A stretch of DNA of 64,000 nt from Brevibacillus sp. JNUCC-41 (GTDB lineage Bacteria; Bacillota; Bacilli; Bacillales; DSM-1321). Both the position numbers and the translations under genes were made by a program. Shown piece after piece: positions 19,383 to 57,850 of the stretch; position 1 is the first letter of the stretch; each line of letters begins with the position of its first letter. The stretch spans positions 4,993,501 to 5,057,500 of the forward strand of contig NZ_CP062163.1 of assembly GCF_014844095.1 (NCBI RefSeq). Direction: 5' to 3'. Under the pieces are notes generated by a model. It did not search any database. It saw only the letters and a program-made list of their open reading frames with translations, and was not told the DNA's origin.

Positions 19383-20003
19383 TTGAGGTTAAATGTAAAA
19401 AAAATGTCGTTTGTTGTTTTTATTTGTTTCTTGTTTTTTATACCAAATTCAATCCTTGCTCAAGAAATTTTACACAATGGAAGTCAAGGACAAGCAGTTT
19501 ATGATTTACAAGAAAATTTAAGGAAAATGGGTTACTTTAACAGACAACCAACAGGGTATTATGGTTCAATTACTGATCATGCAGTTAAACAACTTCAACA
19601 AGATTCTGGAATATTACCAGATGGAGTTTTTGGATTCCAAACACAACAAAAATTAAATAGTATTGAAATGATGGCCAGGGTTGTTTATGGAGAAGCTCGA
19701 GGAGAAACTTATGAAGGAAAAGTAGCTGTCGCTGCAGTAATTTTGAACCGAATGTCAACGCCAGGTTTTCCTAAAAATACTTACGATGTTATTTTCCAGA
19801 CAAATGCTTTTACTGCTGTACATGATGGGCAATATTATTTGACCCCAAATAGCTATTCTTATCGAGCTGTTATTGATGCATTACAAGGTTGGGATCCTAC
19901 TCATGGTTCTGTTTATTATTATAATCCGTTCTTGGCAACAGATGAATGGATTTTCACAAGGAAAACAGTCATTAGAATAGGCAACCACTTATTTGCAAAG
20001 TAA
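19383..20003 (+). CDS. Secreted SleB-type cell-wall hydrolase with peptidoglycan-binding domain
   Basis: About 206 residues. Order: signal peptide (KKMSFVVFICFLFFIPNSILAQ), a PG_binding_1 domain (GSQGQAVYDLQENLRKMGYF to PDGVFGFQTQQKL), then a Hydrolase_2 catalytic domain with ARVVYGEARGETYEGKVAVA (catalytic Glu in GEARGE) and AVILNRM. This is the fold of spore-cortex lytic transglycosylases SleB and CwlJ; it is shorter than SleB because the linker between domains is missing. Starts ATG 19371, TTG 19383 and ATG 19404 are all possible; TTG best fits GAGGG spacing. A strong terminator follows. Confidence 0.85.
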   Translation: MRLNVKKMSFVVFICFLFFIPNSILAQEILHNGSQGQAVYDLQENLRKMGYFNRQPTGYYGSITDHAVKQLQQDSGILPDGVFGFQTQQKLNSIEMMARVVYGEARGETYEGKVAVAAVILNRMSTPGFPKNTYDVIFQTNAFTAVHDGQYYLTPNSYSYRAVIDALQGWDPTHGSVYYYNPFLATDEWIFTRKTVIRIGNHLFAK

Positions 20004-46062: not shown

Positions 46063-46800
46063 TTATATTACTGGTGGTATACGCTCCAAATTAATTCTGA
46101 ATTTATATCGATCTGCACGGTAGACTGATCTGACAACCCCAAGGGGTCGATTCGTATCCAGGATAATTCTTCGTTCTATCAGCAATATAGGGGAACCTTC
46201 GACTACCTCGAGCATTTCCGCCTCTTTTTTTTGAGCGATGGAGGCTTCAATTATCTGTCTGCCATGCTGGATTTGTAAGCCGAAGGTTTTTTTAACATAG
46301 TCATGTATGGAACTCACGGCCATTTCTTCCGTTAGATCCGGGGCAAGATCTTTAGAGATGTATAGCCTTTCAAATGCCATCGGCAACTGATCAGCAAGCC
46401 TTACACGTTCCAGTTCGAAAATAGGAGTTCCTTCTTCAATCTCAAGCTTTGCAGCAAGTTCATGATCAGCATTGACCTCTGTAAAACTGATGACTCGTGT
46501 ACTTGGTTTATGTCCTCTTGATATCATATCCTCTGAAAAGTTTGTTAATCCTTGCAAGGGCTGCTCCAATATTTGTTGGGCAACGAATGTTCCTTTTCCG
46601 CGCTGCCTGTATAAATAACCGCCATTTACGAGGTTAGAAATCGCCTGTCTCACCGTCATCCTGCTTATTCCATATTTTTCAGTATATTCTTTTTCTGAAG
46701 GAATCATCTCTCCTGGCACCAATTCAAGGTTTTGAATCGCTCCTTTAATCTCCTCTTCAAGTTGATGATAAATGGGACTCGGGGAATTCTTTTGGATCAT
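46063..46800 (-). CDS. GntR/HutC-family regulator with UTRA domain
   Basis: 245 residues. Winged helix MIPSEKEYTEKYGISRMTVR and QAISNLVNGGYLYRQRGKGT, then a UTRA effector domain (about 90-240). Close in style to NagR/YvoA, which senses GlcNAc-6-P or GlcN-6-P; those are products of the MurNAc pathway encoded upstream, so feedback by amino-sugar phosphates is a reasonable inference. Last gene of the cell-wall recycling cluster. Confidence 0.87.
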   Translation of the reverse strand: MIQKNSPSPIYHQLEEEIKGAIQNLELVPGEMIPSEKEYTEKYGISRMTVRQAISNLVNGGYLYRQRGKGTFVAQQILEQPLQGLTNFSEDMISRGHKPSTRVISFTEVNADHELAAKLEIEEGTPIFELERVRLADQLPMAFERLYISKDLAPDLTEEMAVSSIHDYVKKTFGLQIQHGRQIIEASIAQKKEAEMLEVVEGSPILLIERRIILDTNRPLGVVRSVYRADRYKFRINLERIPPVI

Positions 46801-46927
46801 TTAGCGTACATCTTCCTTTCATCGTGATGTAAATTTTACAAGGCATCCTGTTCGGAAACATCTCAAGCTAAAATTCCGTTCGATGATCCCTATCCATGCT
46901 AATAAACACGATAAGACAAACTTATAT

Positions 46928-47794
46928 TTAAGTATCCAAATTCCTTTTTGTGAATTTCAATACCGATTCCCTTGAACGTTCAATTTCATTTTTATTTTCA
47001 TTATAGAATTTTGAAACGTACGCATAGAAAATAATGCTGACCGTTAGAAATTGTGCAAAAAGCGAACTTGTTGCAGCACTTCGGAATTTTGCCTCAGGAG
47101 CACGTACATGATTTAGGGACATATCAACTTTTTTAGTTAGCCCATTGTTCCCCAATCGTGATAAACCAATTGTTTTAATTCCATATGCTTTAGCAATATC
47201 AACGAGTTCCAGAACTTCTTCAGTTTCGCCACTATTGGAAATACAGAAAAAAACGGTATTCTTTGATGATGCAGCGAGTGCTGTGGCCGTAATATGCGGG
47301 TCTTGATTAGCACTTACAATTTTTCCTAACCGTAACCATTTCTGTGTAATATCTTCAGCAACAAGCCATGATGCCCCTAATCCATAAACATAAATCACAT
47401 CTGCACTTCTCATGGTTTCAATGATATTGTCTAGAACGGTCTCATCCAAATAATGTGCCGTTTCCTGGATAGCTTGGACAGAGTTGGACACTATTTTATT
47501 TTTGATGGACGCTATTGTTTCATTAGGCTCAATGTCATGGAAACCTTTTTTCTCCGGTTGCGAAATCAGTGATGATAGGGATACCTTCAGTTCTGAAAAA
47601 CTGTTAACTTTTATCGAATGACAGAATCTCGTTACTGCAGAACTGCTGGCATTGGCATGGTCAGCTAATTCATGTATCGTCATTCTTATAATATCTTGTG
47701 GATTTTCTAAGATATATTGGGCAATTTTCCTTTCTGAATTAGGCAACTGGTTCAATAAACTTTCAATTCTCAATAAAATATTTTCAACGGGCAT
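46928..47794 (-). CDS. murR: MurR/RpiR-family regulator (HTH + SIS domain)
   Basis: 288 residues. HTH_6 domain (NSERKIAQYILENPQDIIRM, ANASSSAVTRFCHSIKVNSF) and SIS sugar-phosphate domain (DVIYVYGLGASWLVA, VFFCISNSGETEEVLELV). MurR members respond to MurNAc-6-P. Located immediately downstream of murK; AAGGAG precedes the ATG. It probably controls the promoter upstream of murQ, where two AAATTAATTT palindromes lie. Confidence 0.88.
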   Translation of the reverse strand: MPVENILLRIESLLNQLPNSERKIAQYILENPQDIIRMTIHELADHANASSSAVTRFCHSIKVNSFSELKVSLSSLISQPEKKGFHDIEPNETIASIKNKIVSNSVQAIQETAHYLDETVLDNIIETMRSADVIYVYGLGASWLVAEDITQKWLRLGKIVSANQDPHITATALAASSKNTVFFCISNSGETEEVLELVDIAKAYGIKTIGLSRLGNNGLTKKVDMSLNHVRAPEAKFRSAATSSLFAQFLTVSIIFYAYVSKFYNENKNEIERSRESVLKFTKRNLDT

Positions 47795-47819
47795 ATCGTT
47801 TACTCTCCTTGATCTTTAC

Positions 47820-48716
47820 TTACTTTAACTGCTTCATTGCTATGTAGTAACCACCCAAGGTAGCTGATACGTCATCCAAAACAAATTTCACTTTTGGTTT
47901 TTCAAGTTTAATATGATTGATGAAAGAGCTTTGCACCAATGGTATATTTGTCAATATGCTACCTTTTATCGCAATTGTAACATTCTCACTTAACATTAAC
48001 TTCTTGATAACCTCAAGCGTTTGTTTTGAAAGGTGGTACCCAGCCTGATTCAGAATATTTTGCGAGAAACCATCGCCCTTCTCCGCATGTTGGACAATTA
48101 GGGGAACAAACGCGGCAATCTCGGATTTCGTGGCGGAATAAATGAATTTCTTCAGTTGCATTACACTATGAAGCCCAAGTTTTTTAAGTATTGTCTCGGT
48201 TAAATGGCTATATTCATATCCCTCATCCTCTTCTTTCGTCATTTTTATAAAAGCCTGCATGGCGATCCAGTAGCCACTTCCTTCATCCCCAAGAATGTGT
48301 CCCCAGCCTCCAGAAGATTTCTCGATACCTTTATGGATGCCGATACTTAAAGATCCAGTTCCGGATATGGTCAAAATGCCATCATTTCCTTTTAGTAAAG
48401 CAGCATGAGCGATAATTCCATCATTTACAATCGTGAACGGGGCATTAAATGCCTTGCTTAATGCACGTTTTATGCCCTGCGGATTTTCAACTCCTCCATA
48501 CCCGGCTAGACCTAAGCAAATGTAATGGCAGCTTCCATTATCAATAGGCGTTATGCATTGTTCAATTGCCTGTATAATGTTAGCGATGGCTTGTTTTTCA
48601 TCTATAAGCAGGTTACCATACCCCGCTTTGCCTACACTTATTTTATTTCCCTTTAAATCATAGGCCATTGCTTCAGTTTTAGTGCCACCGCCGTCAACAC
48701 CGATAATATAATTCAT
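47820..48716 (-). CDS. murK: MurNAc/GlcNAc kinase, BadF/BcrA ATPase family
   Basis: 298 residues. ASKHA fold: IIGVDGGGTKTEAMAYD (phosphate 1), CLGLAGYGG, FTIVNDGIIAHAAL, ILTISGTGSLSIG and SSGGWGHILGDEGSGYWIA. Fits MurK-type kinases that phosphorylate MurNAc and GlcNAc at C6. Its role here would be to phosphorylate the unphosphorylated half left after MupG cleaves a PTS-imported disaccharide. AGGAG precedes ATG. Confidence 0.88.
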   Translation of the reverse strand: MNYIIGVDGGGTKTEAMAYDLKGNKISVGKAGYGNLLIDEKQAIANIIQAIEQCITPIDNGSCHYICLGLAGYGGVENPQGIKRALSKAFNAPFTIVNDGIIAHAALLKGNDGILTISGTGSLSIGIHKGIEKSSGGWGHILGDEGSGYWIAMQAFIKMTKEEDEGYEYSHLTETILKKLGLHSVMQLKKFIYSATKSEIAAFVPLIVQHAEKGDGFSQNILNQAGYHLSKQTLEVIKKLMLSENVTIAIKGSILTNIPLVQSSFINHIKLEKPKVKFVLDDVSATLGGYYIAMKQLK

Positions 48717-48750
48717 ATCATTCTCCTATTCAGTAAAAAAGGGAAGGAAA

Positions 48751-49860
48751 TTACCCTTCCTTCCCTGAAGATTCTCCATTAACATCGAATTGGAATTTCC
48801 CCCATGGTTCCAAATAATCGAGGAGAAAGATTTCCTCTTCCGCTATTCGGCCAACTACATTTGTTTTCCCCGAATTCTTCATTTCCTTCAATGCAATCTG
48901 CAGTTCCCCTTTATATTGTCCATAGAGCTCATTTTCAATTAAAATATCACCACGTCTAATATCAGGGGTATATGTTGGTTTAAATTCTTCGCCCTTATAT
49001 TTCACTCGTGATTGAGTCGAGCGAATAAGGTAATCGGAAACATCACCACGGTAAAAATGGAATTCTTCCAATACTATTTTTTTCTCTAAAGCTGTTATGG
49101 TGTCGTGAAGGTTAACATTAAATGTTAACAGACCGCTGTTTAACAGGCTAAGCTCCTTCAATTCATCTTCGGATGCGTAGGCATTTGCAATAATTACATC
49201 ATCAATCAACCCTGTCGCATACAAGTGTTTCGCTTGTGTCGTAATGGGCAATTCCCGGTGCATTTCCAATGTACATAGCCCTTCCATGATAGGCCAAGGT
49301 CCGTACGTTGCTGCATGTGAGCTTATGAAAGCTGCCGTGCGTATATTATGCTTTTTGAATGACTCACAGCATTTTATAAAATGAGGATAGCTCAGCCCTG
49401 CATAGCGATGAGGATAGAAGTTATGCGATCCTACTAAATTCTCTTTATTTGGTTTGTAATCGATAATATTTTCTAAATATTTTGTTGCATTGCTCATATT
49501 TATTTCAATTTTGAGACCATATGGATTATGTGTCATAATCGACTCTTCGTTACCTGTAAAGCCCATGTCCAGTCTGATCCCATACGCACCTAATTCTGCA
49601 AAAAACGATAAGTCATTATAAGAAATGCCTAGCGAACCGAATACTCGGGGAGCAATATCGACCATCACTTCCATATTCAATTGATTGGCATAACGAATCG
49701 TTTCTTTAAATTCTTTTAAAATCTTCTCTTTGTCACCTTCGACGGATAGCAAGCAAGTAAAGATCTTTTTGAATCCATATTTGTGTGCAAGTGCAATGTA
49801 TTCCATGTCTTTTTCAACGGTTGAATGCTCTGGATAGATAGAAATACCGAGTTTACCCAT
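48751..49860 (-). CDS. mupG: MupG-type 6-phospho-N-acetylmuramidase (DUF871)
   Basis: 369 residues. TIM-barrel start KLGISIYPEHSTVEKDMEYI, then FTCLLSVEGD, MVDIAPRVFGSLGI, AYGIRLDMGFTG, SHNFYPHRYAGLS, ISSHAATYGPWPI and a C-terminal small domain (RRGDILIENELYGQYKGELQ). S. aureus MupG cleaves MurNAc-6-P-GlcNAc inside the cell. AGAGGTGATT precedes ATG. It lies between the PTS IIA gene and murK, so its substrate should be the product of the adjoining PTS. Confidence 0.88.
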   Translation of the reverse strand: MGKLGISIYPEHSTVEKDMEYIALAHKYGFKKIFTCLLSVEGDKEKILKEFKETIRYANQLNMEVMVDIAPRVFGSLGISYNDLSFFAELGAYGIRLDMGFTGNEESIMTHNPYGLKIEINMSNATKYLENIIDYKPNKENLVGSHNFYPHRYAGLSYPHFIKCCESFKKHNIRTAAFISSHAATYGPWPIMEGLCTLEMHRELPITTQAKHLYATGLIDDVIIANAYASEDELKELSLLNSGLLTFNVNLHDTITALEKKIVLEEFHFYRGDVSDYLIRSTQSRVKYKGEEFKPTYTPDIRRGDILIENELYGQYKGELQIALKEMKNSGKTNVVGRIAEEEIFLLDYLEPWGKFQFDVNGESSGKEG

Positions 49861-49875
49861 TATTTAATCACCTCT

Positions 49876-50205
49876 TTACTGTTGTGGAGCTAGCTTTTTT
49901 ACAATGCGAATCATATGTTCAATTAGCTTTTGTTCACTCATTGCCGTCATTAAGTGATCCTGAGCATGAATCATTAATAATGTTTTCTCACTTGGAACTC
50001 CATTCAATTCTGCCTGAATCAGTTTGGTTTGTGTTTTATGGGCCAAGTTCAATTCCTCCTGACCCTATTTAATTAGATCCTCTGCCTTTTCAAAATTGAA
50101 TTCTTCCGCTTCTTTCAGTGCGTCAAATGCTAAACCCCTCGCATTTCCACTATGTGATATTATCTCAAAAATTTCCATTTCATTATTGTTCATTTCAGTT
50201 GACAT
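49876..50205 (-). pseudogene. PTS lactose/cellobiose-type IIA with an in-frame amber codon
   Basis: ATG 50205 after AGGAG. The frame reads MSTEMNNNEMEIFEIISHSG, NARGLAFDALKEAEEFNF, KAEDLIK, then TAG at 50065-50067 (codon 47, probably from GAG), then continues GQEELNLAHKTQTKLIQAEL and LLMIHAQDHLMTAMSEQKLI to TAA. The phosphorylated His (HAQDHLM) lies after the stop. AGGAGG at 50055-50060 precedes a TTG at 50046 by eight bases, so re-translation of a 56-residue C-terminal part is possible. Without it, this PTS needs a IIA from elsewhere. Confidence 0.85.
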
Positions 50206-50276
50206 ATCATTACACTCCTATTTTATGTTAGATTTTGAAGGTTCATTGGAATACTGTAATCCGTTTAAAACACCAT

Positions 50277-51623
50277 TCACTTGATGTTCGGTACAGCATT
50301 TTCACTGAAAAATCGTGGTAAGTATTCTTGATGCGCTTTTAAAAGTTTTTGTAAAACAATTTCCGCCAAGTCATCACTTGGAATAAGCGGGTTAATCGTT
50401 AAAGCTAATAACGCTTTATCATAAGAACCTGTAACGGCTGCCTCAGCACCAATTCTTTCAAATGATTTAATTTGTTGAATTAAGCCAAGCACTTGTATGG
50501 GTAATTTTCCCATAGTCAAAGGAATTGGTCCATTTTTGGTGACGATACAACTTACTTCGACTGCTGAATCATGATCTATATCCGTAAGCGATCCTTTGTT
50601 TTGTACATTTAGCACTTGAATGTCTTTTTTATCATTATAAATGGAAGAAATAACATTACATGCTGCATCGCTATAGTAAGCTCCACCACGTTGCTCTAAT
50701 TGTGGAGGCTTGATGTCAAGGGTTTCATCCTTGTATAGGTCAAACAAACCTTCTTCCAGTTTTTTTACAACTTCTGCTCGAGTTTTCCCTGATTTGAATG
50801 CTTCCAACTCTTCTTCTAAAATCGTTTTTGTTTTGTAATAATAACGATGGTACGGGCAAGGCACCACTCCTAAAGATTTCAAAAATCTTCTGTTCCAAGC
50901 CAATGGGGCAATATTCTTCATCGTCAGTTGAATTTCAGGATTGCCAAGCATTTCAAGCACTTTATCCGTGACTTCTTCATCATCAACGAACACATGCATC
51001 CCGAATACCATATGGTTTAACCCGGCGAAATCCATGTGCACTCTCTTCATATCAACACCAAGCATGTCGGAAATAGACATATGCATATTAAATGGAACAT
51101 TGCATACCCCAATGACTTTTTTATGCTTGCTGTAGCGGAGAAGGGCTTCCGTTACCATCCCAGCTGGATTTGTGAAATTAATTAACCATGCATCCGGGCA
51201 GAGCTCCTGCATTTCTTCTGCAATTTCCAGAAGAATGGGGATAGTTCGTAATGCTTTGGACAATCCTCCTGCGCCATTTGTTTCTTGACCAATTAAGCCT
51301 AATTCCAATGGGATCCGCTCGTCCTTGATTCGTGCATCAAGTAAACCCACTCTCATTTGCGTTGTGACAAAATCCGCATTTTGCAAGGCTTGACGGCGAT
51401 CTAACGTTAGATGTATTTCCATTGGAAGTCCTGCTTTTTCAACCATACGTTTTGCTAATGTTCCTACAATCTCCAGTTTTTCTTTTCCTGCCTCAATATC
51501 CACTAACCACAGTTCTCTAATGGGCAACTCATCATATCGTTTAATAAAACCTTCTATTAATTCTGGTGTATAACTGGAGCCTCCACCAATTGTGGCAATC
51601 TTCAACCCGTTTTCCATTTCCAT
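50277..51623 (-). CDS. GH4 6-phospho-glycosidase (6-phospho-beta-glucosidase type)
   Basis: 448 residues. NAD- and metal-dependent GH4 enzyme: LKIATIGGGSSYTPELIEGF (NAD site), FVTTQMRVGLLDARIKDERI, GQETNGAGGLSKALRTIPI, INFTNPAGMVTEAL, GVCNVPFNMHMS with the metal Cys, and GLNHMVFG with the metal His. Most resembles CelF/LicH/ChbF 6-phospho-beta-glucosidases; in this context it could hydrolyse phospho-chitobiose or a phosphorylated GlcNAc-containing disaccharide. GAGGTG fits the ATG at 51623 better than the one at 51629. Confidence 0.9.
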   Translation of the reverse strand: MEMENGLKIATIGGGSSYTPELIEGFIKRYDELPIRELWLVDIEAGKEKLEIVGTLAKRMVEKAGLPMEIHLTLDRRQALQNADFVTTQMRVGLLDARIKDERIPLELGLIGQETNGAGGLSKALRTIPILLEIAEEMQELCPDAWLINFTNPAGMVTEALLRYSKHKKVIGVCNVPFNMHMSISDMLGVDMKRVHMDFAGLNHMVFGMHVFVDDEEVTDKVLEMLGNPEIQLTMKNIAPLAWNRRFLKSLGVVPCPYHRYYYKTKTILEEELEAFKSGKTRAEVVKKLEEGLFDLYKDETLDIKPPQLEQRGGAYYSDAACNVISSIYNDKKDIQVLNVQNKGSLTDIDHDSAVEVSCIVTKNGPIPLTMGKLPIQVLGLIQQIKSFERIGAEAAVTGSYDKALLALTINPLIPSDDLAEIVLQKLLKAHQEYLPRFFSENAVPNIK

Positions 51624-51663
51624 TCCCATAACACCTCATTGTAAGCTAATCTGAATTCTTCAT

Positions 51664-51948
51664 TTATTTATAGATGATTGCATAACAAACCAATGCGCTT
51701 ACCGCTAATAAAGACAAGAATAATAGTGCTGCTTGTTTCTTGTTTTTAAACTTACCTTCAACAAAACAAACAACCATCGTCAATCCTGCGCTTATGGCAA
51801 AGGTATTTCCCATGTATAGTGATAATTGTTCATTTATCTCAAAGGCATCCATTAATCTGTTAAAGATAAAATTAAAAACAAGAATGAAGCTAAAAAATAG
51901 AAAGGCACTTTTGTAACTAAAAAAGTGGATTCTGGAAGTTGAATTCAT
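51664..51948 (-). CDS. Small membrane protein in the PTS operon, 94 residues
   Basis: Three hydrophobic helices (SAFLFFSFILVFNFIF, FAISAGLTMVVCFVEG, AALLFLSLLAVSALVCYAII). GGGGG lies seven bases before ATG 51948. Placed between the IIC and GH4 genes, behind a hairpin. No family recognised; its conserved placement with a Lac-family PTS would need checking. Possibly an accessory subunit of the IIC channel. Confidence 0.65.
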   Translation of the reverse strand: MNSTSRIHFFSYKSAFLFFSFILVFNFIFNRLMDAFEINEQLSLYMGNTFAISAGLTMVVCFVEGKFKNKKQAALLFLSLLAVSALVCYAIIYK

Positions 51949-51971
51949 GTTCTTTCCCCCTCTCAATTCAT

Positions 51972-52009
51972 AAAAGGAGTTTGGAGCATTTAGTCCCAAA
52001 CTCCCTTTT
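51972..52009 (-). terminator. Intra-operon hairpin after the IIC gene
   Basis: AAAAGG.AGTTTGG / CCAAACT.CCTTTT stem with a short T-run; probably a partial terminator or RNA-stability element that lowers downstream expression. Confidence 0.6.
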
Positions 52010-52018
52010 AGGTATTCC

Positions 52019-53308
52019 TTATAAAGCGATATTTTTTTGATCCGTTGTTTCTACCATGTTTTCCTGCGCTAAAAGCTTTTTATCGTACATCTTAAAGAAT
52101 GGCAGATAAATAATAACGGAAATGGTTAAATTCACCATCACTAGAACAATGGCTCTCCAATCACCTCCTGTTGAAAGGTAGGCACCTATTGGAGCGGGCA
52201 GTGTCCAGGGAACCATTACATAAGTCGGATTCACCAGTCCGATGGACGTTGCTATATAGGCAAGTGTTGCACCAATTAGCGGTGTAATGATAAATGGAAT
52301 GATCAGTACCGGGTTGAGTACAATTGGCATCCCAAATATTACAGGTTCATTGATGTTAAAAATGCTTGGTACGATTGTTGCTTTCCCCATTGCTTTACTA
52401 TAGGTGGACTTTGCCGTTAAGAGCATGGCAATTACTAAACCCAATGTTGCACCAGACCCACCAATCCAAATAAACCATTGGAAAAATGTTTCAGGAGCGA
52501 TGTGGGGAATTGCCTTTCCAGCAGCAACCGCAGCAGAGTTATTCCCCAAGTATACTTCCCAAACCGGACGAGCTACGGCACCTACGACTGATACGCCATG
52601 AATACCAAATGACCAAAAGAATGTAATCAAAAATACTGGAATTAATACACCTGGCAATGTATCGCCTGCACTGATGAGTGGTGCAACCGCTTTATCGACA
52701 AGTGAGTGTAAATCAACAGCAAAAACGACTGTAATTAAAGTCATAACAAGCAGAACAATTGAAACTGGTATTAATGCTTCAAATGAACGGGCCACTGAAG
52801 TTGGAACAGAATCCGGCATTTTGATTGTGATATTTTTTGTCTTACAAAGACGTAAAATTTCGACAGCAAAAATGGATACAATCATTCCTACAAAAAGACC
52901 ATGTCCGCCGAGATTTGTCATTGGCAGAACAAATCCCACATCATCCATCGTCTTTACACCAATTGTGAACAAGAAGGCTGCTAATGATAGTAAACCTCCA
53001 GATAGAGGATCAAGTTTATAGCTTTGAGATAAACTGTAGCCTATACCAAAAGTAATATATAGCGTCATGATGAACATCGTTAATCGATATGGTATTAAAA
53101 TTTCAGCTATATGTTTTGCAGACCATTCACCTAATGCAGTATCTGCTGCAACGGGCGGAAATGCGATGATCAAGAATAAACTGCCAAAGATGATGAAAGG
53201 TAACGCAGAAACCACTCCATCCCGAATTGCGCGTAAATGTTTTTGCTCAGACAATTTAGCCATAGGTGTTGAAAGATTATTTTCTAAAAAAGCTACAAAC
53301 TTGTCCAT
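52019..53308 (-). CDS. PTS lactose/cellobiose-family IIC channel
   Basis: 429 residues, about ten membrane helices. Family marks MDKFVAFLENNLSTPMAKLS, FFWSFGIHGVSVVGAVARP and the substrate/phospho-transfer signature IFNINEPVIFGMPIVLNP. CelB-like. Normally carries cellobiose, chitobiose or lactose; surrounded here by murQ, mupG and murK, it probably imports a cell-wall disaccharide. AAAGGGG precedes the ATG. Confidence 0.92.
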   Translation of the reverse strand: MDKFVAFLENNLSTPMAKLSEQKHLRAIRDGVVSALPFIIFGSLFLIIAFPPVAADTALGEWSAKHIAEILIPYRLTMFIMTLYITFGIGYSLSQSYKLDPLSGGLLSLAAFLFTIGVKTMDDVGFVLPMTNLGGHGLFVGMIVSIFAVEILRLCKTKNITIKMPDSVPTSVARSFEALIPVSIVLLVMTLITVVFAVDLHSLVDKAVAPLISAGDTLPGVLIPVFLITFFWSFGIHGVSVVGAVARPVWEVYLGNNSAAVAAGKAIPHIAPETFFQWFIWIGGSGATLGLVIAMLLTAKSTYSKAMGKATIVPSIFNINEPVIFGMPIVLNPVLIIPFIITPLIGATLAYIATSIGLVNPTYVMVPWTLPAPIGAYLSTGGDWRAIVLVMVNLTISVIIYLPFFKMYDKKLLAQENMVETTDQKNIAL

Positions 53309-53357
53309 TCGTGTTTTCCCCTTTTACGTTTAGTGAAAAGAAATAGTAATTAGTTTA

Positions 53358-53663
53358 TTATTTTGCTAGTTCCGTTACCAACTTTAGTAGTTTAGGTCCG
53401 CCAAGAGGGCTGTAAGCTTGCGCTGGTATGGCTTCACAAGGGACGCCCGCTTCATCTGCCGATGCCTTAAAGCCATCGAAACGATGTTTGACTTGCGGAG
53501 CTACCATTGCAACATCCCAGCCATTTCGTACTTCCGCATCAAATTCTTGAGTGCCGACTGCCAATACTTCTATGGTTACACCCTGTTTTTCCCCTTCCTT
53601 CTTTAAAGCGCTTACAACGATTGCACTAGACATTCCACCTGAACATACGAATAATACTTTCAT
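53358..53663 (-). CDS. PTS lactose/cellobiose-family IIB
   Basis: 101 residues. MKVLFVCSGGMSSAIVVSAL holds the phosphorylated Cys7 (family motif CxxGMSTS-like), then VTIEVLAVGTQEF and VAMVAPQVKHRF. Passes phosphate from IIA to the sugar. The real start is the ATG at 53663, since GGAGG directly precedes it and lies inside the longer frame. Between murQ and IIC. Confidence 0.92.
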   Translation of the reverse strand: MKVLFVCSGGMSSAIVVSALKKEGEKQGVTIEVLAVGTQEFDAEVRNGWDVAMVAPQVKHRFDGFKASADEAGVPCEAIPAQAYSPLGGPKLLKLVTELAK

Positions 53664-53703
53664 TCTTTTTTCCTCCAATTTTTCATTTTTTTTATAAAAA
53701 GCG

Positions 53704-54588
53704 TTAAATCGTTTTTCTTATGAATCCTTGTGCCTTCACTAAACGATTTGAGGCTTCTTCATATGATACATTCGTTAAAATCATGACAATTGCAATCTTA
53801 GGCTGGGCATGTGCCTTTTCTAAAAATTCACCTGCAATTTCATAGCTACAGTCAGTAGCATCCATGATAATACGTTTTGCACGTTCAACTAGCTTTTCAT
53901 TAGTTAACTGTAAATCTACCATTAAATTTCCATAAACTTTTCCAACTCCAACCATTGAAGCGGTGGAAAGCATGTTACATACTAACTTTTGCGATGTTCC
54001 AGCTTTTAAACGTGTAGAACCCGTCAGGACTTCAGGCCCGTTTACAACTTCAATCGCAACTTTTGCAATCTTACCTATCTCAGAACCTTTGTTACAGCTT
54101 ATCGACACAGTTCCTGCACCAACTTGATTGGCATATTCCAATCCAGCAATAACATATGGAGTGCGACCACTGGCTGCAATGCCCACTACGACGTCCCTGT
54201 TTGTTAATTCGATTTTCTTCAAATCTTCAGGACCTAATTCAAAACTGTCTTCAGCACCTTCCACTGCCTTAATGAAAGCCTTTTCCCCACCAGCTATAAG
54301 ACCCACTACTTCACTAGGATCGGTATTGAATGTCGGGGGACATTCTACTGCATCCAATAATCCGATGCGCCCGCTTGTTCCTGCACCCATGTAAATTAAT
54401 CTGCCGTTTTTTTTCATGGCTTCGACGATCATCTCCACGGCTTTAGAAATTTGCGGAAGTTCTTTTTTTACACAATGGGCAACTTTGATGTCTTCTTCGT
54501 TCATTACCTCTAAAAACTCAAGTGTTCCCATTTCATCCAAACTCATGGTCTTTTCATTACGACGCTCTGTCGTTAAATGCTCTAGCAT
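53704..54588 (-). CDS. murQ: N-acetylmuramic acid 6-phosphate etherase
   Basis: 294 residues. Cleaves the D-lactyl ether of MurNAc-6-P to GlcNAc-6-P and D-lactate. SIS domain with MGAGTSGRIGLLDAVECPPT, GLIAGGEKAFIKAVEGAEDS (catalytic Glu), VVVGIAASGRTPYV and GSTRLKAGTSQKLVCNMLS. ATG 54588 lies eight bases after AAGGA. First gene of the minus-strand operon; its promoter and operators are visible at 54647-54705. Confidence 0.95.
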   Translation of the reverse strand: MLEHLTTERRNEKTMSLDEMGTLEFLEVMNEEDIKVAHCVKKELPQISKAVEMIVEAMKKNGRLIYMGAGTSGRIGLLDAVECPPTFNTDPSEVVGLIAGGEKAFIKAVEGAEDSFELGPEDLKKIELTNRDVVVGIAASGRTPYVIAGLEYANQVGAGTVSISCNKGSEIGKIAKVAIEVVNGPEVLTGSTRLKAGTSQKLVCNMLSTASMVGVGKVYGNLMVDLQLTNEKLVERAKRIIMDATDCSYEIAGEFLEKAHAQPKIAIVMILTNVSYEEASNRLVKAQGFIRKTI

Positions 54589-54646
54589 ACATATCATCCT
54601 TTTTTATTTCAGTGGTGAAAGTGGTGAAACTTTTTTAGCTATAGAG

Positions 54647-54675
54647 AATATATCATTATTAAAAATTAATTTCAA
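54647..54675 (-). promoter_or_regulatory. Promoter of the murQ operon
   Basis: Minus strand: -35 TTGAAA (54670-54675), 17-bp spacer, -10 TATATT (54647-54652). About 60 nt upstream of the murQ start. Confidence 0.75.
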
Positions 54676-54705
54676 TATTGTGTATACATTTTTAAAAATT
54701 AATTT
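54659..54705. promoter_or_regulatory. Two operator-like direct repeats with AAATTAATTT palindrome
   Basis: TTAAAAATTAATTT occurs at 54659-54672 and 54692-54705, 33 bp apart (three helix turns). Each contains the palindrome AAATTAATTT. The first overlaps the -35/spacer of the murQ promoter, as expected for repression by the RpiR/MurR regulator; assignment is inferred. Confidence 0.6.
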
Positions 54706-54858
54706 TAAAATAAACGGAGATAGCTAAATGATTATTATCTTTCTACTAAAATTGGAATGTAAACTGACTAGCCATCTTATGAACCAAACCTCCGATTCTT
54801 TTTATTGTTTAGATCTTATCTCACTATTCATATGTAACAAATTCATATATTCATTATT

Positions 54859-54872
54859 TGTTAACGCTTACA
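54859..54872 (+). promoter_or_regulatory. Catabolite-response element (cre)
   Basis: TGTTAACGCTTACA matches the CcpA consensus TGWAANCGNTNWCA at 13 of 14 positions. It lies 42 bp upstream of the GHL10 start, so this gene is probably glucose-repressed. Confidence 0.75.
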
Positions 54873-54913
54873 AATAATTAAATATAACTATTAAATGAAA
54901 TGAGGTTTTACTA

Positions 54914-56527
54914 TTGATGAATGAAAGAATTACAAAGACAAGATTTGGTTCACTGGCGCTAGCCGCTTTAGTGGGAGGATCACTTCTCCTTCCATCCGAT
55001 TTGATTGCACATGCAGAAACGGGGACGATCCCTCAGCAAACTACTTATGTAAAACAGGAACTGCGCGCAACTTGGATTGCAACTGTGTTAAATATTGACT
55101 GGCCGTCCAAACCAGGTTTATCCATATCAGCACAGAAAGAAGAATTCATAAAATATTTGGATGAACAAAAAGCAATGGGGATGAATGCTGTCGTTATGCA
55201 AATTAAACCAACTGCAGATGCTTTTTACCCTTCTGAATACGGCCTTTGGTCAAAGTATTTAACAGGAATCCAAGGAAAAGATCCTGGGTATGACCCTCTT
55301 GCATTCATGGTAGAAGCAGCACATGATCGTAATATGGAATTTCATGCATGGTTTAATCCATATCGCATTACTATGCCTTTAGGTAAGACAGCTGAATTAT
55401 CGGATATTGATAACCTTCCAGAATCTCATCCTGCTAGAAAACACCCTGATTGGGTCATACCTTATGGGCAACAGTTGTACTTTGACCCAGGCATTCCTGG
55501 CGTACAACGGTTTGTGATCGATGGAATAATGGAAGTTGTTAAGAATTATGATATTGATGCAGTCCATATGGACGATTATTTCTATCCTTACAAGATTGCA
55601 GGAGTACCTTTCCCGGATGAAATTTCCTATCAAAAATATGGAGCAGATAGATTTACAAATGTGGAAGATTGGCGAAGGGATAATGTAAATAACCTTGTTA
55701 AGAATATAAATGAAGAAATCAAGGCTGAAAAATCATATGTGAAGTTTGGTATTAGTCCATTTGGAGTTTGGCGCAACAAAGCAGTTGATCCCACAGGGTC
55801 TGACACTGCCGCTGGACAAACGAATTACGATGATTTATATGCGGATACCAGGACGTGGATCAATAATGGATACATTGATTATATTGCACCTCAATTATAT
55901 TGGAATATAGGATTGCCAGTAGCTGACTATGCCAAACTTCTTGATTGGTGGACAAAAGAAGTCGAAGGTAAAAATGTTCAACTCTATATTGGACAAGGAG
56001 ACTATAAAATTAATACAGAGTCCAATGGTGTCCAAAACTGGTTCAATCCTGAAGAAATGCCAAACCAGTTAAAACTGAATCGAACATATAAGGAATTTGA
56101 TGGAAGCATGCATTTCAGTGCCAAAGATTTACGGAAAAACCCCCTTGGGATAGTGGATCGTTTAAGTGAGGATATTTATAAGCATCCCGCATTGGTTCCT
56201 GCCATGCCTTGGATTGATGATCATGCCCCAAAGGCTCCAAAGGTGAGCAAGGCAACACAAGCTGGTGATGGAATACAATTTGAAATTCACGATCACAAGC
56301 AATCAGATGCATCCTATTATGCCATTTATCGTTTTGATGGGAAGGAAAAAGGAAATATAGAAGACTCAACGAACTTACTTGCCACAGTGCATAAAGAAAA
56401 TAAACGTCAATTATATATTGACGGCAGTGTAGAAAAAGGAAAGACATACACATATGTTGTGACTGCCTTAGACCGAACCCACAATGAAAGTAAACAAACT
56501 AAACAGATTAATATAAAAGTAAAATAA
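54914..56527 (+). CDS. Secreted GHL10-type glycoside hydrolase (YngK/DigH-like) with C-terminal Fn3
   Basis: 537 residues. Signal peptide (RFGSLALAALVGGSLLLPSD, cleavage near AHAE). GHL10/DUF187 barrel: ELRATWIATVLNIDWPSKPG, AVVMQIKPTADAFYPSEYG, FHAWFNPYRITMP, IDAVHMDDYFYP and IDYIAPQLYWNIG. A fibronectin-III-like domain follows from about 445. E. coli DigH of this group cuts peptide-free peptidoglycan strands, which would feed the adjoining MurNAc pathway. Start TTG 54914 or ATG 54917 after GAGG. A cre site lies upstream. Confidence 0.88.
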   Translation: MMNERITKTRFGSLALAALVGGSLLLPSDLIAHAETGTIPQQTTYVKQELRATWIATVLNIDWPSKPGLSISAQKEEFIKYLDEQKAMGMNAVVMQIKPTADAFYPSEYGLWSKYLTGIQGKDPGYDPLAFMVEAAHDRNMEFHAWFNPYRITMPLGKTAELSDIDNLPESHPARKHPDWVIPYGQQLYFDPGIPGVQRFVIDGIMEVVKNYDIDAVHMDDYFYPYKIAGVPFPDEISYQKYGADRFTNVEDWRRDNVNNLVKNINEEIKAEKSYVKFGISPFGVWRNKAVDPTGSDTAAGQTNYDDLYADTRTWINNGYIDYIAPQLYWNIGLPVADYAKLLDWWTKEVEGKNVQLYIGQGDYKINTESNGVQNWFNPEEMPNQLKLNRTYKEFDGSMHFSAKDLRKNPLGIVDRLSEDIYKHPALVPAMPWIDDHAPKAPKVSKATQAGDGIQFEIHDHKQSDASYYAIYRFDGKEKGNIEDSTNLLATVHKENKRQLYIDGSVEKGKTYTYVVTALDRTHNESKQTKQINIKVK

Positions 56528-56559
56528 ACTTCAAGAAATAGCTTTACGGTTCAAGAGGC

Positions 56560-56664
56560 ATGTCAGTGAACAATGGACGTAAGGTATATATTAAACAATA
56601 TGTTAGAAATGGTATTACCTTAGTATCATATACTGTTTCATATGATGCTAAATTAGGATTTTAA
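56560..56664 (+). CDS. Possible 34-residue ORF or gene fragment
   Basis: ATG to TAA encodes [20 protein letters not shown] and [12 protein letters not shown], a beta-strand-like stretch that reads like the C-terminal end of a larger protein. AGAGG is only one base before the ATG, so translation is doubtful. It lies between the GHL10 gene and anmK. Confidence 0.3.
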
Positions 56665-56689
56665 AAGAATCGAAGTAGGTGGAATGACG

Positions 56690-57850
56690 ATGTACATAGT
56701 TGGATTAATGTCCGGAACATCACTGGATGGAATTGATGCCGCACTTGTTCGGGTGAATAATAGTGGACTCGAGACTGAAATGGAAATGATTGAGTTCATG
56801 ACATGCCCTTTTCCAAAAGATATTGAAAAAGAAATAATGCAGTCTTTATCTGCAGACACATCCAATGTTCAATTAATATGCAGTTTGAATTTTAAATTAG
56901 GAAAATTATTTGCCAATGCGGTAAAGGAAGTTTGTCATAAAGCTGGACTTCCCCTTAATAAACTGGATCTTATTGGATCCCATGGACAAACCATTTACCA
57001 TCAGCCTTTAAAGGACCAAAATTATATACCCTCCACTTTGCAAATTGGGGAAGCCGCAGTAATTGCTCATGATACAAACACACTTGTTATCTCAAATTTT
57101 CGTACGATGGACATGGCAGCTGGTGGACAAGGAGCTCCTCTTGTTCCTTTTACCGAATACATTCTTTATAGAAGTGAAGGGAAAGGAAGATTACTTCAAA
57201 ACATAGGTGGCATTGGAAATGTTACCGTTTTACCCAAGCAAGCATCTCTTGATGACATGTATGCTTTTGATACAGGGCCTGGGAATATGATCATTGATGA
57301 AGTATGCCGCCAATTGTTCAATATAAGCTATGACGAAGGTGGTAACATAGCTAAACAAGGCAAAATCAATGACGAACTTTTATCTTATTGCATCAGTCAT
57401 CCTTATATTATGAGCCCTCCGCCAAAATCCACTGGCAGGGAATTGTTTGGCAAGGAGTATGTAGTAAAACTATTAAAGATGTTTGAATCACTTCCAAGTC
57501 AAGATATTTTAGCAACAGTAACGATGTTTACAGCAAAGTCCATTGTGGAGAACTATCGAAATTTCATCTTTCCGAAAGCCAATATAGAAGAAGTGATTAT
57601 TGGCGGCGGTGGAAGCTATAACAAAACGTTATTAAATATGATTCAATCACTGCTTGGAAATTCCATACAAGTCTTGACTCAAGAAGATTTGGGATACTCT
57701 TCCGAAGCGAAAGAAGCGGTGGCCTTTGCATTACTTGCAAATGAGACTTTCCATGGTAATACAAGTAACGTTCCCAAGGCTACCGGTGCTGACTTCGATG
57801 TCATCCTTGGAAACATGACCTTCCCTCCTTTACATCGAATCAATAAGTAA
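56690..57850 (+). CDS. anmK: Anhydro-N-acetylmuramic acid kinase
   Basis: 386 residues. Converts 1,6-anhydro-MurNAc to MurNAc-6-P, the MurQ substrate. Motifs: [60 protein letters not shown] and [20 protein letters not shown] fits the ATG at 56690 better than that at 56684. Anhydro-MurNAc is produced by lytic transglycosylases, so the island handles both turnover product types. Confidence 0.95.

Follow-up and report, generated by a model that had tools for sequence, protein, structure and literature searches.

A Lac-family PTS island with AnmK in Brevibacillus sp. JNUCC-41: a candidate pathway for GlcNAc-1,6-anhydroMurNAc

The DNA analyzed here (the window; 64,000 nucleotides of Brevibacillus sp. 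JNUCC-41) contains an island in which genes for peptidoglycan-sugar catabolism are packed together with a PTS of the lactose/cellobiose (Lac) family. The question raised by this locus is which sugar such a carrier delivers to those enzymes. All genes named in the original prediction were recovered in 46063-57850, with Pfam or NCBIfam profiles over cut-off for all except the small membrane protein, and the kinase only as “MurK-like”:

46063..46800, minus: GntR/UTRA regulator (Pfam UTRA 151 bits, GntR 63.6 bits)
46928..47794, minus: RpiR/MurR-type regulator (Pfam HTH_6 and SIS, both over cut-off)
47820..48716, minus: murK-like kinase, BadF/BadG family (Pfam PF01869)
48751..49860, minus: mupG-type GH170 phosphoglycosidase, Lac-PTS-linked group (Pfam MupG_N/MupG_C)
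49876..50205, minus: PTS IIA, Lac family, with an in-frame TAG inside (PF02255 112 bits)
50277..51629, minus: GH4 6-phospho-glycosidase (both Pfam GH4 domains)
51664..51948, minus: small membrane protein (hydropathy suggests three helices)
52019..53308, minus: PTS IIC, Lac/cellobiose family, peptidoglycan-linked clade (TIGR00410 419 bits; tree)
53358..53678, minus: PTS IIB, Lac family (Pfam PTS_IIB)
53704..54597, minus: murQ, MurNAc-6-phosphate etherase (TIGR00274 406 vs 302 bits)
54914..56527, plus: GHL10 enzyme (Pfam GHL10 333 bits)
56684..57850, plus: anmK, 1,6-anhydro-MurNAc kinase (NF007142 equivalog, 630 bits vs a cut-off of 435)

The minus-strand run murQ-IIB-IIC-small membrane protein-GH4-IIA-mupG-murK-rpiR has intergenic gaps of 15 to ~70 nt. 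The spacing from rpiR to gntR is wider (127 nt), and GHL10 and anmK are divergent from the run. The order from murQ to rpiR was kept in 15/15 same-genus loci (L045-L059); GntR was absent from L053 and split in two in L049, and GHL10 was split in two in L053. The association of the genes is not due to chance. The nearest solved relative of the murK-like kinase was 8zo3, an N-acetylmuramic acid/N-acetylglucosamine kinase (E 1.4e-33), and the protein fell below the cut-off of NCBIfam NagK_SO3507; it is probably a MurNAc/GlcNAc kinase. The IIA frame is interrupted by a TAG at 50065-50067, and its PF02255 match spans this one codon. A stop at the equivalent position was absent from all related IIA genes compared. 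The interruption may cripple the island in strain JNUCC-41 unless a substitute IIA exists.

The carrier clade and its neighbors

The island IIC passed TIGR00410 (419 vs 236 bits), which places it in the Lac/cellobiose family with separate IIB and IIA; a MurP-type glucose-family EIIBC was rejected as its identity. It narrowly missed the cellobiose equivalog cello_pts_IIC (419 vs 434 bits) and lay far under the chitobiose equivalog (218 vs 760 bits). The only solved relative found was ChbC, 3qnq (E 2e-88). In the IIC tree, which holds one characterized carrier only, the island clade comprised 85 rows (support 100/99); B. cereus ChbC was outside it, the 3qnq branch did not contain the island IIC, and the other Lac-type IIC fetched from the same genome (L043) was likewise excluded. 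The small membrane protein, whose start is most likely the ATG (94 aa) and not the upstream TTG, matched no Pfam or NCBIfam family. Of its 11 matches in 299 genomes, 10 were no farther than 0.5 kb from an IIC of the clade; it is a companion of this clade.

The co-occurrence search that had been proposed was run on 80 IIC loci of the clade (the best 80 of 176), with a neighborhood of 10 kb. Among these best 80, mupG was found in 72, anmK and the murK-like gene in 64 each, murQ in 47, and a MurP-like match in 5. GntR was present in 14/15 same-genus loci vs 14 of the best 80. These are raw counts, uncorrected for shared ancestry. The linkage of mupG, anmK or murQ to the clade spans Bacillaceae, Listeriaceae, Enterococcaceae and clostridia. 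The search thus tied the Lac-family clade to mupG, murQ, the murK-like gene and anmK across Firmicutes; a placement firmly among cellobiose/chitobiose carriers and devoid of a murQ link was not what emerged.

Linkage of AnmK was scored in 299 Bacilli genomes, with up to 5 candidates per genome and a distance of 8 kb. AnmK was within this distance of 10/21 clade IICs, 0/11 other Lac IICs and 0/95 MurP-like genes. Of the 12 AnmKs closest to that of the window (its own included), 10 were beside a clade IIC, and an eleventh adjoined a MupG of the Lac type. Across 43 genomes of the family, intact AnmK was present in 19/19 with the island and 1/24 without it; it was found in 0/17 having a MurP-type MupG but no island. 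In one such genome (G036), MurP is intact, and the island and most of anmK have been lost; G014 resembles it, but frame breaks abound in its sequence at this place. One genome (G032) kept an AnmK (46% type) without island or MurP. In the best 80 loci, anmK was on the same strand and ≤200 nt from a core gene in 48 of the 64 that bear it. AnmK belongs with the Lac-family PTS, not with MurP. The carrier probably takes other disaccharides as well, because 16 of the best 80 loci had no anmK within 10 kb (some reach a contig end), and 8/20 clade genomes in the class sample had no AnmK at all (in two more it was on another contig). AnmK, MupG and GH4 were all absent by tblastn from L105, L150, L154, L155 and L157.

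A candidate route for GlcNAc-anhydroMurNAc

The PTS had been supposed to operate instead of MurP. At the genome level this was wrong: a complete B. subtilis-type locus (murQ-murR-murP-mupG2-GH3-namZ) lies at 4.23 Mb (G000:C1), ~0.8 Mb from the island. MurP elsewhere had also been considered as the sole means of uptake; its presence was borne out, its sufficiency was not. Nor is a Lac-family carrier good ground for expecting a disaccharide, as had been argued, since S. aureus MurP itself is reported to import MurNAc-GlcNAc (PMC6262408). Either MurNAc-GlcNAc or GlcNAc-MurNAc had been offered as the substrate. Linkage to anmK, together with a GHL10 enzyme related to a lytic transglycosylase, favors GlcNAc at the non-reducing end, and especially GlcNAc-anhydroMurNAc, which had not been considered.

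The GHL10 enzyme has a signal-peptide-like N-terminus (by eye) and is closely similar to the Cwp19 kind of GHL10 domain; Cwp19 (5oq2, E 9.5e-129) was its only solved relative found. Among the best 80 loci, anmK was present in 34/35 with GHL10 vs 30/45 others (those without GHL10 nearby). E. coli DigH is also a GHL10 protein. Cwp19 is reported to be a lytic transglycosylase yielding GlcNAc-anhydroMurNAc muropeptides (PMC6016235), whereas DigH is described as a hydrolase (PMC12288456); thus, the domain by itself does not settle that an anhydroMurNAc product is formed.

From these comparisons, we place at roughly 0.6 the probability that the island encodes a second, nearly self-contained catabolic pathway for peptidoglycan disaccharides with a non-reducing GlcNAc, chiefly GlcNAc-1,6-anhydroMurNAc. 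By homology, the GHL10 enzyme would cut extracellular glycan strands and leave anhydroMurNAc ends. The Lac-family PTS, perhaps with the small membrane protein, would import the disaccharide and phosphorylate C6 of GlcNAc: such a PTS phosphorylates C6, and because the anhydro bridge of anhydroMurNAc ties up its C6, only the other sugar can receive the phosphate. The GH170 enzyme (MupG) would split GlcNAc6P-anhydroMurNAc into GlcNAc-6P and anhydroMurNAc, and GH4 may be its helper or serve N-deacetylated (GlcN) variants. As expected of their families, AnmK would convert anhydroMurNAc to MurNAc-6P, the MurK-like kinase would do the same for MurNAc (from GlcNAc-MurNAc), and MurQ would yield GlcNAc-6P and D-lactate. 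MurNAc and MurNAc-GlcNAc would be left to the separate MurP locus.

Assignment of the cleavage to MupG rather than GH4 is the likelier one, because 18 of the best 80 loci combined AnmK and MupG without GH4 and none combined AnmK and GH4 without MupG. All three co-occurred in 43, and GH4 was never found without MupG. The island MupG is of the MupG/GH170 family (Pfam MupG_N 332 bits, MupG_C 142 bits) and is 29% identical to the MurP-linked MupG of the same genome. In the MupG tree, the Lac-PTS-linked group (85 rows; a third kind of paralog is among them, and its branch holds the solved B. cereus 1x7f) was split from 16 MurP-linked rows with support 100/100 and long branches. The groups have 42 alignment columns in common and differ at positions that include C36/S31, L38/H33, S39/I34 and N226/D212 (fixed) and H151/R141 (99% and 90%). 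By analogy, GH170 activity is probably not confined to MurNAc-6P, because growth of L. paracasei on diacetylchitobiose is reported to require a GH170 gene that adjoins a cellobiose-type PTS (PMC12791066); the 26% identity of that enzyme, ChbE, is to S. aureus MupG, not to the island enzyme.

An unlikely alternative follows S. aureus: the PTS would import MurNAc-GlcNAc and phosphorylate MurNAc, MupG would free MurNAc-6P and GlcNAc, the latter would be phosphorylated by the MurK-like kinase, and AnmK and GHL10 would have a separate role. S. aureus MupG is reported to perform exactly such a cleavage (PMC6262408), and the mupG, murK-like and murQ counts fit, as do the 16 of the best 80 loci lacking a nearby anmK. 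However, a MurP-murQ-MupG locus for MurNAc-GlcNAc already exists in the genome, and the island MupG falls in a separate group. The MupG of L165, a locus of S. aureus-like gene order, lies closer to the MurP-linked group (identity 38% vs 27%; S. aureus MupG itself is outside the tree). This alternative also fails to account for anmK tracking the island, adjoining its core genes, and being absent or decayed where the island was lost. Less probable still is one carrier for two disaccharides, with MupG acting on MurNAc6P-GlcNAc and GH4 on GlcN(Ac)6P-(anhydro)MurNAc; the joint presence of AnmK, MupG and GH4 would suit it, as would the 6-phospho-beta-glucosidases that are the nearest solved relatives of GH4 (1s6y, E 5e-206), but the loci with anmK and MupG and no GH4, and the dependence of GH4 on MupG, do not. 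An ordinary cellobiose/chitobiose PTS that neighbors mur genes by chance is very improbable: the family model, the ChbC match and the GH4 kinship agree with it, whereas the exclusion of ChbC and L043 from the clade and the linkage across four groups of Firmicutes speak against it. The GlcNAc6P-anhydroMurNAc of the preferred reading is lighter than MurNAc6P-GlcNAc by one water, which makes the two separable by mass.

Known systems and regulatory sites

The E. coli chb operon has a Lac-family PTS and, unlike the island, requires the deacetylase ChbG; it is not known to contain mur genes. A GH4 phospho-glycosidase is common to it and the island, and the L. paracasei chb cluster likewise pairs a cellobiose-type PTS with GH170, but is described for diacetylchitobiose, with a DUF3284 protein and no mur genes named (PMC12791066). 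The S. aureus mupG-murQ-murP-murR operon shares a MupG-family glycosidase, MurQ, an RpiR/MurR regulator and PTS import of a peptidoglycan disaccharide; its carrier is MurP (EIIBC), and as described it is without AnmK and GHL10 (PMC6262408). Its gene set is not matched by the island, where MurP is missing. The B. subtilis cluster (murQ-murR-murP-amiE-nagZ-ybbC(namZ)) uses the same MurNAc-6P route via MurQ, with MurP import and, as described, no anmK (PMC5061867); its counterpart elsewhere in JNUCC-41 has mupG in addition. In the Gram-negative AmpG-NagZ-AmpD-AnmK-MurQ route, AnmK and MurQ likewise process the anhydroMurNAc of lytic transglycosylases, but with the AmpG permease and NagZ acting on the unphosphorylated disaccharide, where the island would use a PTS and a phospho-glycosidase (PMC5061867). 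C. difficile Cwp19 shares the GHL10 domain, adds CWB2 anchor repeats, and is presented as an autolysin with no import pathway described (PMC6016235).

We tentatively propose, at slightly under even odds, a Firmicutes PTS-based counterpart of AmpG-NagZ-AnmK: a secreted GHL10 lytic transglycosylase that generates GlcNAc-1,6-anhydroMurNAc, a dedicated Lac-family PTS, with an undescribed three-helix membrane subunit, that brings the disaccharide in as GlcNAc6P-anhydroMurNAc, and a GH170 subfamily acting as a 6-phospho-N-acetylglucosaminidase that feeds AnmK. In the open-access literature, handling of anhydroMurNAc ends in Gram-positive bacteria is little described, and no description was found of a Lac-family PTS with AnmK or of such a route. 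If the proposal is true, soil bacilli, listeriae, enterococci and clostridia would have a candidate pathway that is complete, leading from an enzyme outside the cell into central metabolism, the GH170 group containing 1x7f would gain a new proposed substrate, and a membrane protein family outside Pfam and NCBIfam would gain a role.

Two candidate regulatory features were located upstream of murQ or between it and GHL10:

54661-54672 and 54694-54705: direct repeat AAAAATTAATTT, two copies, upstream of murQ; weak candidate operator
54853..54878: 26-bp palindrome with a cre-like (CcpA) site at 54858-54873

The sequence AAAAATTAATTT had 3 exact matches in the window vs 0.27 expected, and its repeats were conserved only in part among 16 same-genus sequences; it is a possible, weak operator. 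In the same 16 sequences, 25/26 positions of the palindrome were invariant. It was expected 0 times in shuffles, and the cre-like site matched the consensus used perfectly. Together with the RpiR and GntR regulators, this site suggests induction by the substrate and repression by better sugars.

A GlcD/GlcF-like pair, possibly for oxidation of D-lactate, recurs in 18 of the best 80 of 176 clade loci.

Gene order of the island and its carrier clade

The genome (G000) is a single contig of 5.49 Mb, and the window occupies C1:4993501-5057500. The island (window 46063-57850), whose closest named relatives are in Peribacillus simplex and P. frigoritolerans, comprises a minus-strand run with intergenic gaps of 15 to ca. 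70 nt as far as rpiR, and two genes divergent from it.

Genes of the island, with those of the minus strand in order
Minus strand, murQ
Minus strand, PTS IIB
Minus strand, PTS IIC
Minus strand, small membrane protein
Minus strand, GH4
Minus strand, PTS IIA
Minus strand, mupG
Minus strand, murK-like
Minus strand, rpiR
Minus strand, gntR
Plus strand, GHL10
Plus strand, anmK

All 15 same-genus loci examined (L045-L059) share the order from murQ to rpiR, and the gene set is seen again in a range of families; chance clustering was rejected on these grounds. The evidence for the island is its gene content, conservation and co-occurrence, from which its substrate and reactions are inferred. At L060 (a further same-genus genome), anmK lies within the operon, and at L061 and L062 similar kinds of genes are arranged as two divergent arms. 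Two same-genus loci have a split gene in an otherwise conserved island: gntR is in two pieces at L049, as is GHL10 at L053, where GntR, MFS and TetR were not found.

A collection of 84,980 species was scanned with an alignment of six IICs, and the best 80 of 176 relatives were kept. Among these 80 loci, some on draft contigs whose ends can break adjacency, mupG was located by tblastn within 10 kb of the IIC in 72 (71 in the ORF-based analysis, the counts of which differ slightly and in which L105 has no IIC reading frame). Within the same distance were anmK (64 loci), a murK-like gene (64), GH4 (48), murQ (47) and GHL10 (35); a MurP-like match was present in five. In the IIC tree, which was calculated without L046-L059, 85 rows grouped apart from B. 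cereus ChbC and the tree's other Lac IICs (support 100/99). The tree and the gene linkage disfavor a plain chitobiose/cellobiose system. The original prediction, that a PTS of the Lac family takes up a peptidoglycan disaccharide, has good support from this separate clade and from the linkage to mupG, anmK, murK-like genes and murQ.

Several loci depart from the common pattern. The Lac-PTS clusters at L064-L068 are of a third kind (IIC ca. 37-42%, MupG ca. 51-54%), with neither murQ nor anmK nearby. The enterococcal loci L154, L155 and L157 combine a clade IIC and the small membrane protein with a GH1-like protein (assigned by eye) and a MurK-like protein, with MupG and AnmK absent; perhaps they serve a different substrate. 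At the clostridial loci L142, L146 and L147, the cluster adjoins genes resembling oligopeptide ABC transporters (by eye) and a gene for a beta-lactamase-family protein, possibly for muropeptides.

A second mur locus and the association with anmK

A complete second mur locus (murQ-murR-murP-mupG2-GH3-NamZ-PTS EIICB) was found in the same genome at C1:4.23 Mb (L042:5558-14805). The earlier picture of a genome devoid of MurP was therefore wrong, and the island is a second system rather than a replacement for MurP.

Carriers were also compared in 299 Bacilli genomes; at most five first-look candidates were scored per genome, and the IIC and MurP-like counts are accordingly lower bounds. IIC matches with E values of 1e-100 or better numbered at least 21 at 432 bits or more (the clade) and at least 11 at 358 bits or less (other Lac IICs). 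Ten of the at least 21 clade IICs had anmK within 8 kb, versus none of the at least 11 others and none of at least 95 MurP-like genes, a set that reaches down to 38% identity, such that some may not be MurP. AnmK was encoded anywhere in the genome in 12/20 clade genomes versus 49/279 others. Within the family (43 genomes; these counts, like those of the Bacilli sample, are uncorrected for shared ancestry), intact AnmK was present in 19/19 genomes with the island and in 1/24 without it. It was present in none of the 17 family genomes that have a MurP-type MupG (the group linked to MurP) and no island; MurP lies beside the MurP-type MupG in 10 fetched loci from these genomes, and the other seven have a MurP match, although that of G014 ends early with a stop inside.

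Two genomes have lost the island between conserved flanks. In G036 (L173), the neighbors are intact, only remnants of anmK (its end) and gntR are left, and intact MurP and MurP-type MupG are retained. In G014 (L172; 87% complete), anmK and gntR remnants are likewise found, but the neighboring genes have frame breaks, so that G036 is the only clean case of anmK loss. We read this pattern as natural evidence that these bacteria gain little from AnmK when the island is absent. Evidence to the contrary comes from G032, where another type of AnmK occurs with neither the island nor MurP, and from the 80 clade loci kept (the best of 176), 16 of which lack a nearby anmK. The gene was present in 34 of the 35 loci with GHL10, compared to 30 of the 45 without. 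At L100 (Kurthia, 7.5-8.9 kb), anmK-like matches occur in two separate pieces beside the cluster.

Substrate and glycosidase

The substrate of AnmK is 1,6-anhydroMurNAc, in which C6, the position phosphorylated by the PTS, is tied up in the anhydro bridge. A PTS could therefore import this sugar only as one half of a disaccharide whose partner sugar takes the phosphate. Lytic transglycosylases yield GlcNAc-anhydroMurNAc, and we infer that this would be the imported disaccharide. Its phosphorylated form, GlcNAc6P-anhydroMurNAc, would be lighter by one water ([M-H]- of ca. 557.14) than MurNAc6P-GlcNAc, for which PMC6262408 gives 575.15. Among solved proteins, the sole match to the island GHL10 was Cwp19 (E 9.5e-129). 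DigH of E. coli is presumably a GHL10 protein as well. PMC6016235 reports lytic transglycosylase activity for Cwp19, with anhydro-muropeptides and some reducing products, and PMC12288456 describes DigH as a hydrolase. Because of DigH, the kinship with Cwp19 is only suggestive of a lytic transglycosylase product as the substrate. GHL10 need not be the sole source of anhydroMurNAc, as lytic transglycosylase candidates occur elsewhere in the genome (three SLT and six Hydrolase_2 matches). A Hydrolase_2 domain (PF07486, cortex-enzyme type; 106 bits) is located at ca. 19701-19997 of the window (G000:C1:5013201-5013497). Of the original proposal, import of a disaccharide remains well supported; from the anmK linkage and the GHL10-Cwp19 kinship, the sugar is likely the more specific GlcNAc-anhydroMurNAc. 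Clade loci without anmK may handle reducing disaccharides, e.g. GlcNAc-MurNAc.

Either MupG (GH170) or GH4 could be proposed to cleave the imported sugar. By reading frames, AnmK was accompanied by both in 43/80 loci, by MupG without GH4 in 18/80, by GH4 alone in 0/80 and by neither in 3/80; these counts disfavor GH4 as the main glycosidase. In the MupG tree (101 rows after identical ones were dropped), the island MupG fell in an 85-row group split from 16 MurP-linked rows (support 100/100), and all rows of that group other than the solved 1x7f came from Lac-PTS loci. In a residue comparison without L063 and L068, positions 36, 38, 39 and 226 were fixed differently between the Lac-PTS-linked and MurP-linked groups, and His151 (99%) replaced the Arg usual in MurP-linked enzymes (90%); a possible role of this Arg, and no more than a guess, is recognition of the lactyl group. 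The B. cereus 1x7f grouped with the MupGs of L064-L067 and thus may not be a MurNAc enzyme. A GH170 gene adjoining a cellobiose-type PTS is required for growth of L. paracasei on diacetylchitobiose (PMC12791066), and a DUF871 protein of Bacillus coagulans lies within an operon annotated as a cellobiose PTS (PMC6271610). By analogy with these contexts, a GH170 enzyme acting on GlcNAc-6P glycosides is plausible.

Among the matches listed from the open-access literature on AnmK and PTS in Gram-positives, GH170/DUF871 and GlcNAc-anhMurNAc uptake, none described the pathway, though subscription work could be missed; the passages of PMC11594194 and PMC11633334 list the genes and have no further bearing.

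Regulation and accessory genes

A shared operator upstream of anmK was rejected, as that region has no conserved block. Between murQ and GHL10, a 26-bp palindrome, 25 positions of which are invariant in 16 same-genus sequences, contains a perfect cre-like site; this putative site suggests carbon-catabolite control of the island. Such perfect sites were found in only 13/80 loci (15 in total versus 6 in one shuffle), and control of this kind is therefore proposed for the Peribacillus-type island alone.

The Lac-type IIA gene of the window is interrupted by an in-frame TAG (50065-50067). No stop was found at the matching position in the related IIA genes compared, so the TAG is either a nonsense mutation of recent origin or an error in the sequence. 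G000 carries an uninterrupted Lac-type IIA at another site, which might substitute for it.

No Pfam or NCBIfam match was obtained for the small membrane protein, which is 94 aa long and whose hydropathy indicates three helices, and two of 18 family members gave single weak NCBIfam matches to unrelated models (E 0.003 and 0.009). The family was detected in 53/80 and 56/79 loci in two threshold-limited scans. A profile of the 18 members, built from IIC neighbors such that remote relatives elsewhere could escape it, gave at least 11 matches in the 299 genomes (at most 17 first-look candidates scored per genome); 10 lay no more than 0.5 kb from a clade IIC, and the other, weak and partial, was elsewhere. 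Enterococci and clostridia have a second set of such proteins, distantly related to the first (hhalign probability 96%). The protein is a candidate subunit of the island PTS.

A GlcD/GlcF-like pair recurs in 18/80 loci. MurQ makes D-lactate, which the pair would oxidize.
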